NCBI GenBank assembly: GCA_007693325.1
Contig: REDW01000047.1
Coordinates: 1-34,651, forward strand
Direction of reading: 5' to 3'
DNA length: 34,651 nucleotides
DNA from: Spirochaetaceae bacterium
GTDB taxonomy: Bacteria; Spirochaetota; Spirochaetia; DSM-27196; PWMO01
The first letter of the stretch is position 1, and the number at the start of each line of letters is the position of its first letter. The notes beneath the pieces are model-generated. The model ran no database searches. It saw only the letters and a list, made by a program, of their open reading frames with translations, and had not been told where the DNA came from. The translations under genes were made by a program, and so were the position numbers. Below, piece by piece: positions 1 through 4,325 of the stretch.

Positions 1-56
1 GAGAAATCCAGCAAATACCGGGTGAATCTGCGTTTCTTTCACAAGGTTCGTAACAG

Positions 57-88
57 TTTTAAAAAGCCCCGGCAGGAGAAACCGGGGC
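57..88 (-). terminator. Rho-independent terminator of glnA
   Basis: Read on the minus strand, a 7-bp stem GCCCCGG/CCGGGGC (plus-strand 66-72 and 82-88) with a 9-nt loop is followed by TTTTT then AAAA. It lies about 120 nt past the glnA stop codon and in the right direction to end the glnA transcript. The T tract is short but the stem is entirely G-C apart from its loop. Confidence 0.8.
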
Positions 89-98
89 AAAGAGGGTT

Positions 99-140
99 GG
101 CTGCCGCGCTGCGCGGCGTGAGCTCACGCAACGGGCAGCC
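99..140. repeat. Nested palindromes in the glnA 3' region
   Basis: Between the glnA stop and its terminator there are several perfect inverted repeats that could compete in RNA: GCCGCGC-T-GCGCGGC (103-117), the palindrome GCGTGAGCTCACGC (116-129), and an outer pair GGCTGCC/GGCAGCC (99-105 with 134-140). A branched 3'-UTR structure is possible. In GC-rich sequence short palindromes also arise by chance, and I see no U tract directly after these. Confidence 0.45.
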
Positions 141-177
141 GGCAGGGCATAACGGCGGCAGGAGGCAACTAACCGCC

Positions 178-213
178 ATATCTACACCACGGCAGGGCCG
201 CGGTGTCAGATAT
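178..213. repeat. Imperfect inverted repeat across the glnA stop codon
   Basis: The arms ATATCT-ACACC-AC-GGC and, read in reverse complement, ATATCTGACACCGCGGC pair with one bulged base and one mismatch around a 4-nt loop (about 178-193 with 198-213). The right arm contains the glnA stop codon (206-208). The function is unknown; it could protect the 3' end or be incidental. Confidence 0.4.
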
Positions 214-1630
214 CGTAATAGAGTGCGAACTCCCACGGGTGGGGTCGCAGATCGAGCGCCTGAACCTCGTTGGTCAACTTGTAGTCGATCCAGGTCTCGA
301 TCACGTCCGGGGTGAAGACATCGCCCTTGAGCAGGAAGTCGTGGTCTCTCTCCAGTTCTTCCAGTGCTCCGCGCAGCGTACCGGGGGTCTTTGCTACCTT
401 GGCGGCTTCCTGCGGCGGAAGGTCATAGATATCCTTGTCAAGCGGTTCACCGGGGTTAATCTTGTTCTGAATGCCGTCGATAGCGGCCATCATCATGGCC
501 GAGAACGCCAGGTAGGGGTTGCACGAAGGATCCGGGCAGCGGAACTCGAAGCGCTTGGCCTTCTCGGAGTTGGAGTACATCGGGATGCGCACCGCCGCGC
601 TGCGGTTGCGCCGCGAATAGGCCAGGTTGACCGGCGCTTCAAATCCGGGGACCAGCCGCTTGTAGCTGTTGGTGGTGGGGTTGGTGAACGCCAGCACCGC
701 CGGAGCATGCTTCAACAGGCCGCCGATTGCGTAAAGCGCAGTCTCGGACAGGCCGGCGTAGCCGTCGCCGTAGAACAGGTTCTTGCCGTCCTTCCAGAAC
801 GACATGTGCACGTGCATGCCGCTGCCGTTGTCGTTCCACAGCGGCTTGGGCATGAAGGTGACCGTCTTGCCGTGCTTGCGTGCGGTATTCTTGACGATGT
901 ACTTGTACTTGAGCATGTTGTCGGCCATGCTGACCATCGGTGCGAACCGCATGTCGATTTCGCACTGACCGCCGGTGGCTACCTCGTGGTGATGCGCCTC
1001 AACCGGGATGCCGATAGCCTGCATCACCAGCACCATCTCGCTGCGGATATCCTGCAGGCTGTCGGTTGGCGCCACCGGGAAGTAGCCTTCCTTGTAGCGC
1101 GGTTTGTAGCCCAGGTTGGGGCCCTCGTCGCGGCCGGTGTTCCAGCGGCCTTCGCTGGAATCCAGGAAATAGTATCCGGCGTGTTCGTTCTGATCGAAGC
1201 GCACGTCATCAAAGATGAAGAACTCCGCTTCGGGCCCTACAAAGACGCTGTCGGCTACCCCGACTGACTTGATGTAGTTCTCGGCTTTGCGCGCGATATT
1301 GCGCGGGTCACGGGTATAGTCTTCACCGGTGATTGGGTCGCAGATATTGCAGGTCAGAACGATCGTCTTGTGCTGGGTGAATGGATCGATGAACGCGGTC
1401 TCGGGGACCGGCTTGACCAGCATATCGGACTCGTTGATTGCCTGCCAGCCGCGGATGCTCGAGCCGTCAAAGCCGAGCCCTTCGCTGAACATGTCTTCTT
1501 CAAACGCTGTGGCGGGAATCGAGAAATGCTGCCACATGCCGGGAAAATCCATGAAGCGGAAGTCAACGACTTCAACTTTCTCTTTCTCCATCAGTGCCAT
1601 GACGTCTTTGGATGTCTTTGCAGTACTCAC
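206..1630 (-). CDS. glnA: Glutamine synthetase type I
   Basis: This cytoplasmic enzyme makes glutamine from glutamate, ammonia and ATP, the main entry point of ammonium. The family signatures are plain: N-terminal beta-grasp with [12 protein letters not shown], then [25 protein letters not shown] (metal and glutamate ligands), [19 protein letters not shown], and NRSAAVRIP. The loop DIYDLPPQE near residue 400 keeps the tyrosine that is adenylylated in enteric GSI-beta enzymes. An ATG lies at 1651, but the GTG at 1630 has AGGAG 8 nt upstream and gives a 474-residue protein, near the usual 469, so I prefer 1630; the ATG has only a distant AGGAG. It is monocistronic, with its own terminator downstream and a repeat-rich control region upstream. 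Confidence 0.97.
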
Positions 1631-1711
1631 TATTCTGTCTCCTTGGTCCATTGGTGCGCGGGACGCTCTCCTGCCATTCCCGCGAAATGGGTGTTCAACT
1701 GCCTCGTACTA

Positions 1712-1727
1712 TACAAGATGCGTGCCA
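1712..1727 (-). promoter_or_regulatory. Possible sigma54 promoter of glnA
   Basis: On the minus strand TGGCACG-N4-TTGTA matches the -24/-12 sigma54 consensus TGGCACG-N4-TTGCA except for T in place of C at the critical -12 position, and the GG-to-GT spacing is the correct 10 nt. It lies about 80 nt before the GTG start, giving a leader of roughly 70 nt. The same bases also contain a sigma70-like -10, TATAGT, but no good -35 precedes it. The -12 mismatch keeps this tentative. Confidence 0.4.
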
Positions 1728-1805
1728 TCTATGCGAGACGCTGCGCAACAGTTGCCAGCTAAACGACTTAGTGTCTGACGGCCACGATTTGTTGCCACAG
1801 AGAGC

Positions 1806-1843
1806 GTAGCATATCGGTGCCAAGCATACCAAAATGTAGCATA
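1806..1843. repeat. Three 8-bp direct repeats at 15-bp period
   Basis: GTAGCATA (1806-1813), CAAGCATA (1821-1828) and GTAGCATA (1836-1843) recur at exactly 15-nt spacing. They lie about 80-115 bp upstream of the sigma54-like site of glnA and about 50 bp upstream of the pepT -35. The arrangement suggests an operator or enhancer-binding site for an unknown regulator. No clear fourth copy continues on either side; 1791-1798 matches in only 5 of 8 positions. Confidence 0.6.
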
Positions 1844-1874
1844 CGCCTGGAAGTAAATACAATGTTGTAGTTTG

Positions 1875-1898
1875 ATCCGGCTTTGGCATCCGGCTTTG
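1875..1898 (+). repeat. 11-bp direct repeat overlapping the pepT -35 box
   Basis: ATCCGGCTTTG occurs at 1875-1885 and again at 1888-1898, separated by GC (13-nt period). The second copy runs into the TTGACA of the pepT promoter, so a protein bound here would overlap RNA polymerase. It could be a repressor site or a small tandem duplication. Confidence 0.55.
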
Positions 1899-1924
1899 AC
1901 AGCCGTGACGCTTTGCCCTATTAT
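1896..1924 (+). promoter_or_regulatory. pepT sigma70 promoter, leaderless type
   Basis: TTGACA (1896-1901), a 17-nt spacer and TATTAT (1919-1924) form a near-consensus promoter. The ATG of pepT follows after only 8 nt, so transcription should start at or within 2 nt of the start codon. There is no Shine-Dalgarno sequence. Confidence 0.8.
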
Positions 1925-1932
1925 CGGGGTTC

Positions 1933-3204
1933 ATGGAATCACTTCACGACATGCAGCGTGATCGCCCCTGGTTCGAGGCCGAGGTGCTGCAGCGTTTTCT
2001 GCGCTACGTGGTAATCCACACAACCTCGGACCGCCACAGTGCGGCTCGGCCATCGAGCGCGCATCAGCTCGAACTATGCGACCTGCTGGCCCTGGAACTG
2101 GCCGAACTCGGCATCGATGACGTGTATCGCGACGCGGCTACCGGCAGCATCATAGCGCGTATTCCGGCCCGCGGCGCGGACTCCGGCGCTGTTACTATCG
2201 GTTTCATGGCGCACGTGGATACCGCGCCGGACTTCTGCGGCGAGGGTGTCTCGCCGCAGGTTATTGACAACTACAACGGCGGTGACATTGTACTGAGCGG
2301 TTCCGGGCACGTCCTGGGCCGCGCCGATCACCCGGCGTTGGCGGACTACGTAGGGGCTACCGTGATTACTACCGACGGCACCACGCTGCTGGGTGCCGAT
2401 GACAAGGCCGGGGTAGCCGAGATCATGACCGCCGCGGCGTACCTGGTGCGGCATCCCGAGATTGCGCACGGGCCGCTGGAGCTGATCTTCACCACCGATG
2501 AAGAAGTTGGCCGCGGGATGGACAACTTTCCCACCGAACGGTCATCGGCACGCTACTGCTACACGCTCGATGGCGGTGACGAGGGCAGTGTCGAGGCCGA
2601 GTGCTTCAGCGCCTTTCACGCCACGGTTGGTTTCAGCGGCTACGCGATTCACCCCGGTCAAGCACGCGGCAAGATGGTCAATCCGGTCAGCATGGCTTCC
2701 AGCTTTGTCACGCTATTGCCACGCAGCGAGAGCCCCGAGGCTACTGACGGCCGCTTCGGCTTCTATTGCCCTATCGAACTGACCGCCGGACTATCCGAGG
2801 CAACGCTGCACGTGCTGATTCGCGATTTTGAGCTCGACCAGGTTAAGCGGCGTATCGCAGCGCTTGAGGCGATAGCGGCTGCGGTTGAAGCCGCTTATCC
2901 CGGCGGCAGCGTCAGCGTCAAGGCTGAGCAGCAATACCTCAACATGCGCGACGTCATGCGTGACCACCCGCAGGTCAACGAGATGGTCGACCGCGCCATC
3001 CGCGCCACCGGGATCGAGCCGACCTGGCGCAGCATCCGCGGCGGTACCGATGGCGCCCGCTTCACCCAGATGGGGGTGCCAACCCCTAACGTGTTCAGCG
3101 GCGCGCACAACATGCACAGCCGCTTTGAGTGGGTGGCGCTGCCTGCTATGGTGCGCGCTGCCAAGACGGTGGTCAACCTGGCCCAACTGTGGTCTCAGGT
3201 GTAG
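1933..3204 (+). CDS. pepT: Peptidase T (tripeptide aminopeptidase, M20B)
   Basis: This is a cytoplasmic zinc aminopeptidase that removes the N-terminal residue of tripeptides. The M20 metal and catalytic residues are in order: GFMAHVDTAPD, GADDKAG, TTDEEVG (general base and metal-ligand glutamates), YTLDGGDEG and the final SGAHNMHSRFEW. At 423 residues it is slightly longer than the roughly 408 of enteric PepT because of a longer N-terminus. The ATG at 1933 is chosen because it follows the promoter directly; a second ATG at 1951 has no ribosome site either. The 3' end overlaps alr by 10 nt, convergently. Nothing else is in the transcript. Confidence 0.95.
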   Translation: MESLHDMQRDRPWFEAEVLQRFLRYVVIHTTSDRHSAARPSSAHQLELCDLLALELAELGIDDVYRDAATGSIIARIPARGADSGAVTIGFMAHVDTAPDFCGEGVSPQVIDNYNGGDIVLSGSGHVLGRADHPALADYVGATVITTDGTTLLGADDKAGVAEIMTAAAYLVRHPEIAHGPLELIFTTDEEVGRGMDNFPTERSSARYCYTLDGGDEGSVEAECFSAFHATVGFSGYAIHPGQARGKMVNPVSMASSFVTLLPRSESPEATDGRFGFYCPIELTAGLSEATLHVLIRDFELDQVKRRIAALEAIAAAVEAAYPGGSVSVKAEQQYLNMRDVMRDHPQVNEMVDRAIRATGIEPTWRSIRGGTDGARFTQMGVPTPNVFSGAHNMHSRFEWVALPAMVRAAKTVVNLAQLWSQV

Positions 3205-4325
3205 ACGCGCGGGACGCGCTTGTTGACCCAGCAGGTTATCTCGTAGGGAATGGTTGCGACAAGTTTTGCAAGCTCTTCAGCATCGGGGCCGGCGGCATCG
3301 GGGCCAAAGAGAACTACCTCATCACCGCGGCGTGCGGTGGCGTCTGCACCCAGGTCGATCATGAACTGATCCATGCAGACGCGGCCGGCTATTGGTGCGC
3401 GGTAGCGGCGGCCGCTGCGCTCGCAGACCAGCACCTCAGCGCGGTTTGACAACAGCCGGTTGTATCCGTCTGCGTAACCCGCAGGAATAGTGGCGATGGT
3501 TGTGGCGCTCGGAGCGCGGAAGGTCATGCCGTAGGAGATGGTTGCGCCGGCTTCGACCTGTTTGACAAACGAAATCTGCGACCGCAGTTCCATCACCGGT
3601 TTGAGCTCCAGATTACGCGGCTGCTCATCGGAGGGGTAGTAGCCGTAGACCGATATGCCCGGACGCACCATGTCGGCCCACGTGTCGGGGTGGCCGACTA
3701 CGGCGCCCGAGTTGGCCGCGTGAACGATACCCGGTTCCACGCCGGCTTCACGGATAGCCGCCAGCGCCTCGGTAAAGCGTGCGCTCTGTTCCCGGGTGGG
3801 GCGGTCGTCTGCGCCATCGGCAAGCGGGAAGTGCGTTGCAACACCCGCAAGCGTGATATACGGCATCTCGGTCAGCGCGTGTGCAAGTGCGGCAGCATCC
3901 TGCGTTCGGCAGCCGATTCTCCCCATTCCGGTATCGATCTTGAGATGCACCGCAGTCGAGCTGCCCAGGCGCGCGGCGGCAGCCGAGACAAGCTGCGCGT
4001 ATTCGCGGTCTGCAACAAACGGCGAAAGGCGGCTGCCGACCAGGTCTTCGATTTCCTGCTCAGCTGCCAGACCGTAGAGCAGAACCGGCGCTTCAATGCC
4101 GGCCGCGCGCAGCGTTGCTCCTTCTTCCACTGTGGCTACTCCCAGGTGCGTGGCGCCCTCTTCCAGTGCCACCCGCGCCACCTGCACGCTGCCGTGGCCG
4201 TAGGCGTCGGCCTTGACCGCTATGCACATCGCCGTGGCGCGCCCGTCTCGCTGCACGCGACTGCGCAGCTGGCGCAGATTGAAGCGCAGGTTGTCCAGGT
4301 GAATGATAGCCCGTGTTGCTCTCAT
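3195..4325 (-). CDS. alr: Alanine racemase
   Basis: This PLP enzyme interconverts L- and D-alanine to supply the cell wall. AVKADAYGHG carries the PLP lysine (K38), KIDTGMGRIG and HAANSGA lie in the barrel, and SYGMTF (about residue 266) carries the second catalytic tyrosine. IPAGYADGYNR and RVCMDQFMIDLG mark the C-terminal domain. At 376 residues it has full family length. The ATG follows a promoter -10 box by 6 nt and has no Shine-Dalgarno sequence, so it is probably leaderless. It is convergent with and overlaps pepT, and is divergent from the DMT transporter gene. Confidence 0.96.
   Translation of the reverse strand: MRATRAIIHLDNLRFNLRQLRSRVQRDGRATAMCIAVKADAYGHGSVQVARVALEEGATHLGVATVEEGATLRAAGIEAPVLLYGLAAEQEIEDLVGSRLSPFVADREYAQLVSAAAARLGSSTAVHLKIDTGMGRIGCRTQDAAALAHALTEMPYITLAGVATHFPLADGADDRPTREQSARFTEALAAIREAGVEPGIVHAANSGAVVGHPDTWADMVRPGISVYGYYPSDEQPRNLELKPVMELRSQISFVKQVEAGATISYGMTFRAPSATTIATIPAGYADGYNRLLSNRAEVLVCERSGRRYRAPIAGRVCMDQFMIDLGADATARRGDEVVLFGPDAAGPDAEELAKLVATIPYEITCWVNKRVPRVYT

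Follow-up and report, generated by a model that had tools for sequence, protein, structure and literature searches.

In enteric bacteria, NtrC recognizes a dyad of the GCAC/GTGC type, with a site pair about three helical turns apart. The upstream activating sequence of the nif-type NifA is TGT-N10-ACA, the GlnR/TnrA consensus is TGTNA-N7-TNACA, and that of NtcA is GTA-N8-TAC. The enteric glnA promoter glnAp2 is described as a sigma-54 promoter with tandem NtrC sites (PMC4740811). Two further systems are close by description. Leptospira EbpA is described as a one-component GAF activator that controls amtB together with sigma-54, is FhlA-like with two GAF domains, and has amtB and two lipoprotein genes as targets (PMC12655853). 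In Desulfovibrio vulgaris, the one-component activator DVU1949, whose gene is co-transcribed with others, is described as controlling nine operons labelled nitrogen metabolism and transport (PMC4641369). In the literature that we searched, with thin coverage of subscription journals, no NifA-like nitrogen-assimilation regulon was found in Spirochaetales.

The window analyzed here is the whole stretch of 34,651 nucleotides and corresponds to contig C12 in a draft genome of 3.47 Mb. Its divergent gap at 1652–1932 separates glnA on the minus strand (206–1651; type I glutamine synthetase, TIGR00653, 684 bits against a cut-off of 429) from pepT on the plus strand (1933–3204; peptidase T, PRK05469, 488.7 bits against a cut-off of 255). 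The true start of glnA is probably the GTG at 1630, which is preceded by the Shine–Dalgarno sequence AAGGAG, and not the ATG at 1651. Among named genomes, the closest glnA genes belong mostly to spirochaete MAGs (75–81% identical), with some otherwise labelled MAGs interspersed; on this basis the genome was taken as a probable member of Spirochaetota. The GTG and its ribosome site (window 1628–1651) also occur in the glnA loci L002–L004. An Rfam scan of positions 1–4000 gave no RNA element match.

Upstream of glnA lies a predicted sigma-54 promoter (TGGCACGCATCTTGTA, 1712–1727, minus strand) that matches the consensus as TGGCAC-N5-TTGTA, with a −12 element of TTGTA and not TTGCA; the aligned block is conserved in L001–L004. 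Farther upstream are two inverted repeats of the form TAC-N6-GTA, 31 bp apart and both on the minus strand, namely, a proximal dyad GCTACATTTTGGTATG at 1825–1840, matching 10 of the 14 consensus positions, and a distal dyad ACTACAACATTGTATT at 1856–1871, matching 9. The centres of the proximal and distal dyads are about 105 and 136 bp, respectively, from the promoter TGG, distances that are identical in L001, L002, and L004; in L003 the best-scoring pair lies elsewhere, yet the proximal dyad aligns with the others. In the relatives, the dyad reads CCTACAT-N2-ATGTAGG, often twice at 30–33 bp apart, upstream of TGGCAC-N5-TTG(C/T). A tandem-dyad bacterial enhancer would be expected to have at least two helically phased dyads about 100–150 bp upstream, and the pair shows this layout, in line with the expectation of the first-pass annotation that an enhancer-binding regulator of glnA would act at this place. 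A strong sigma-70-like promoter of pepT (TTGACA-N17-TATTAT, 1896–1924, plus strand, 11 of 12 matches) lies about 25 bp past the distal dyad. As that annotation had also stated, the region contains no NtrC, GlnR/TnrA, or NtcA site, and we found no NifA site at 1631–1932 either, all judged by the consensus sequences given above. Because no known nitrogen-regulator consensus is present, a regulator of other specificity, as already proposed there, is likely.

For a quantitative analysis of the dyads, we used the regions upstream of glnA in this genome and its relatives (30 in total, each at most 400 bp long), with 200 permuted palindromes as controls for the dyads and the reversed pattern as a control for the sigma-54 consensus. 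Since the dyad consensus was derived from the glnA sites, gltB and the regulator gene described below serve as independent tests. A dyad matching 11 or more of the 14 consensus positions was present in 23 of the 30 glnA, 21 of the 29 gltB, and 17 of the 30 regulator-gene upstream regions (the thirtieth gltB locus, L176, had no upstream sequence), against means of 0.5, 0.5, and 0.4 and maxima of 6, 11, and 4, respectively, for the permuted palindromes. At a score of at least 10, the glnA and gltB regions contained 28 site pairs 16–60 bp apart, 20 of them at 30–32 bp and 3 at 33 bp, compared with a mean of 0.12 and a maximum of 6 control pairs at 30–32 bp. The sigma-54 consensus was found upstream of glnA in 14/30, of gltB in 16/29, and of the regulator gene in 0/30 regions, with no match of the reversed control in any set.

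The distribution of the dyad pair was examined in 41 genomes with the pattern CTAC-N6-GTA, 18–20 bases, TAC-N6-GTA. In the genome of the window it occurs at exactly three places, with no match of the reversed control: upstream of glnA (C12, 1827–1870), upstream of gltB (C109, 86916), and between a nifA-like gene and amtB (C9, 18629), ahead of amtB-glnK. The pairs at amtB and gltB are followed by predicted sigma-54 promoters (TGGCATAGCTCTTGCT and TGGCACGGTTTTTGCA, respectively). The check proposed in the first-pass annotation, a search for the element at other nitrogen genes such as amtB and gltB, thus comes out positive for the dyad pair. The 8-bp repeats discussed below are not found upstream of gltB. 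Across the 41 genomes, the pattern was detected in 28 (reversed control, 2 matches in total) at 47 distinct places. By their coordinates, 16 lie immediately after the regulator gene, toward amtB, 12 are in front of gltB, and 9 are in front of glnA, which leaves 10 others. Two of these others precede ammonium transporter genes (L219 and L232; in L232 the transporter gene comes third in a cluster that has a sigma-54 promoter), two have by eye a sigma-54 match near transport-like genes (L210 and L217), and six of the 47 places show no clear link to nitrogen. In G007, which fits less well, 202 bp separate the regulator gene from the amtB-side pair. The list of amtB-side loci (L145–L174) is partial, as the HTH pattern missed about 10 of 30 regulator loci.

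Beyond these genomes, the pair was found in 5 of 79 glnA loci scanned from many phyla (80 fetched, of which 79 had sufficient length; reversed control, 0), belonging to three spirochaete MAGs, one MAG labelled Deltaproteobacteria (L047), and one Desulfobacteraceae MAG (L123). In both L123 and L047, pairs of TAC-N6-GTA precede a sigma-54 promoter of glnA. In a sample of the phylum, the pattern matched in 31 of 296 genomes with many reversed-control matches, so that at this breadth the pattern alone is not evidence. From 26 loci outside the order (L237–L262), we inspected 10 whose dyads resembled the consensus by eye; 8 of these precede nitrogen genes (six amtB, one nifH, and one type III glutamine synthetase). 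The pairs ahead of nifH and of the type III glutamine synthetase gene are those of L243 (G077) and L251 (G323), which belong to orders of the phylum other than this one.

The regulator acting on the dyads is likely the NifA-family activator P0001, the product of the nifA-like gene (C9, 18702–20261, minus strand). It passes TIGR01817 (nifA; 563.6 bits against a cut-off of 528.85), contains GAF, AAA+, and Fis-type HTH (HTH_8) domains, and its gene is followed by amtB and a P-II gene. Orthologs (E ≤ 1e-120) were found in 38 of the 41 genomes; the draft genome G031 (90% complete) has the gltB pair and no ortholog at this threshold. NtrC (TIGR01818) was above the cut-off in none of the 41 genomes, with 30 candidates scored per genome. 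No nifH above the cut-off was found in the genome of the window, and two of the 41 (G023 and G040) have one; both carry on the same contig, beside nifH, a second NifA that is 54–55% identical to P0001. The amtB-linked NifA is therefore distinct from the nif-specific one. In these two genomes (L236 and L235, respectively), a sigma-54 promoter is present at nifH, and inspection by eye shows CTACA/GTGTA half-sites with a wider spacing. As for the regulator gene itself, dyads lie about 40–140 bp from it in most relatives (L145–L174) with no sigma-54 match, and in the genome of the window a dyad, CATACGTTGATGTAGT, is at −51. The dyads ahead of the gene and the lack of a sigma-54 match suggest that the nifA-like gene may be autoregulated.

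Other readings of the same gap were weighed against an enhancer composed of dyads. The first-pass annotation had singled out three 8-bp direct repeats at 1806–1843, to which no strand is assigned, and these are present as it described: GTAGCATA at 1806, CAAGCATA at 1821, and GTAGCATA again at 1836, at a period of exactly 15 bp. Its view that they are unlikely to be random holds for the gap, where dinucleotide-preserving shuffles gave any comparable triple of 8-mers (period 10–40 bp, at most two mismatches) in just 6 of 1,000 cases and, in a second set, a period-15 triple in 0 of 1,000. It does not hold for the window as a whole, which has 10 triple placements, about as many as the richer of 20 shuffled windows (0–10). 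If the repeats themselves were the binding sites of a regulator, that is, iterons, they would be expected in relatives; however, more than one TATGCT/AGCATA core was seen in the glnA upstream region of the window only and in none of the 29 others, nine of which have a single core at scattered positions. The triple was likewise absent from the gltB upstream region of the same genome and from L002–L004, the three relatives of the same genus for which the region upstream of glnA was available, an absence in close relatives that the annotation itself had named as refuting its proposal; when the regions of this genus are aligned, the triple proves not to be kept, although L002 retains a degraded first copy, GGTATGTTGCG. 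Moreover, copies 2 and 3 overlap the proximal dyad and are explained as its half-sites. The direct repeats as a functional unit were therefore rejected owing to their lack of conservation and the dyad half-sites, and iterons are very improbable here; the conserved element at this spot is the inverted-repeat pair, not the direct repeats. Still less probable, to a degree that we regard as negligible, is that the dyads are there by chance with no regulatory function. The individual dyads of the window are imperfect, which would suit such an origin, but the pair pattern in this genome is confined to glnA, gltB, and amtB, its position relative to the sigma-54 promoter is conserved in L001, L002, and L004, and a chance palindrome was rejected by comparison with the permuted palindromes and the reversed pattern.

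A more serious alternative accepts the dyad pair as a real nitrogen-regulatory site and assigns it to another enhancer-binding protein, for example, one of the response regulators L034, L035, and L036, or to an unrelated repressor. Since the genome encodes 11 strong sigma-54 activator domains, P0001 among them, another protein could bind the dyads. A repressor would also suit 7 of the 30 glnA upstream regions (L015, L017, L018, L024, L027, L028, and L029; six of family f8 and one of f2), in which the dyad lies 1–2 bp behind the −10 element of a TTTACA/TATTTT-like (sigma-70-like) promoter with no sigma-54 match; in these operator positions, the same protein could act as a repressor, or another protein could bind. 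Further misfits are that the two dyads of the window are weak, which counts against the enhancer model, that the sigma-54 consensus is missing from 16 of the 30 glnA upstream regions, and that those of family f3 have one dyad, in many cases a strong one, and lack the sigma-54 consensus. Against a different binder, the site is linked, among the activator genes examined, to the nifA-like gene only, just behind which 16 of the 47 places are located, and a dyad with a score no lower than 11 was present in 17 of the 30 regions upstream of this gene; furthermore, L034, L035, and L036 all fall below both the NtrC and NtrX cut-offs. On balance, we consider another binder unlikely.

Collectively, it is probable, from sequence comparison, that the region is a sigma-54 enhancer at which the NifA-family protein, bound to the dyads, activates glnA and that the same protein co-activates gltB and amtB-glnK. 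In the mechanism proposed, dimers of this one-component activator would occupy the two dyads, which are separated by about three helical turns. The bound activator would then oligomerize and loop to RNA polymerase–sigma-54 at the glnA promoter, a course proposed because of the analogy with NtrC at the enteric glnA. ATP hydrolysis by the activator would drive formation of the open complex, presumably when nitrogen is short, and gltB and amtB-glnK would be co-activated via equal sites. P-II (GlnK) may signal the nitrogen status to the regulator, an input suggested by the gene order of regulator, amtB, and P-II.

With activator sites in tandem, spaced by about three turns and upstream of a glnA sigma-54 promoter, the locus resembles the enteric NtrC enhancer. 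It differs in that the dyad is CCTACAT-N2-ATGTAGG and not of the GCAC/GTGC type, and in that no NtrC is above the cut-off in the 41 genomes, the proposed activator being a one-component protein with a GAF domain. P0001 is like NifA in passing TIGR01817 and in its domain order of GAF, AAA+, and Fis-type HTH, but its recognition region, SERIMGLRVNKH, differs from the T(P/T)RQxxYxx of three annotated proteobacterial nif-linked NifA proteins. The predicted regulon is likewise unlike that of the nif type in a genome with no nifH above the cut-off, and the consensus TGT-N10-ACA was found at none of its glnA, gltB, and amtB. With NtrC above the cut-off in none and nifH in two of the 41 genomes, the site would therefore act in the manner of an NtrC enhancer, through a sequence that is neither that of NtrC nor that of the nif-type NifA. 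As described, the Leptospira EbpA–RpoN system shares the spirochaete host, a one-component GAF activator, sigma-54, and the amtB target, and is set apart by the FhlA-like protein with two GAF domains and the lipoprotein targets. DVU1949, as described, is also a one-component activator of a nitrogen regulon but is encoded by a gene that is co-transcribed with others. Its motif could be the same as the dyad found here, and a TAC-N6-GTA pair does occur at the glnA of a Desulfobacteraceae MAG (L123).

A wider scenario, which we advance tentatively as possible rather than probable, is that, in this spirochaete lineage, a protein of the NifA family, released from its nitrogenase role and endowed with a new recognition sequence, replaced NtrC as the master regulator of the nitrogen-assimilation genes amtB-glnK, glnA, and gltB. 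In some families of the order, the site would have changed from an enhancer to a glnA operator, at which the same sigma-54 activator would repress a sigma-70 promoter. The relatives form a set for comparing enhancer and operator use of one motif. For the free-living relatives of spirochaetes, the analysis provides a concrete predicted nitrogen regulon, consisting of a regulator, a site, and three targets, and it suggests that, where nitrogenase is absent, NifA-type proteins may act as regulators of nitrogen metabolism in general.
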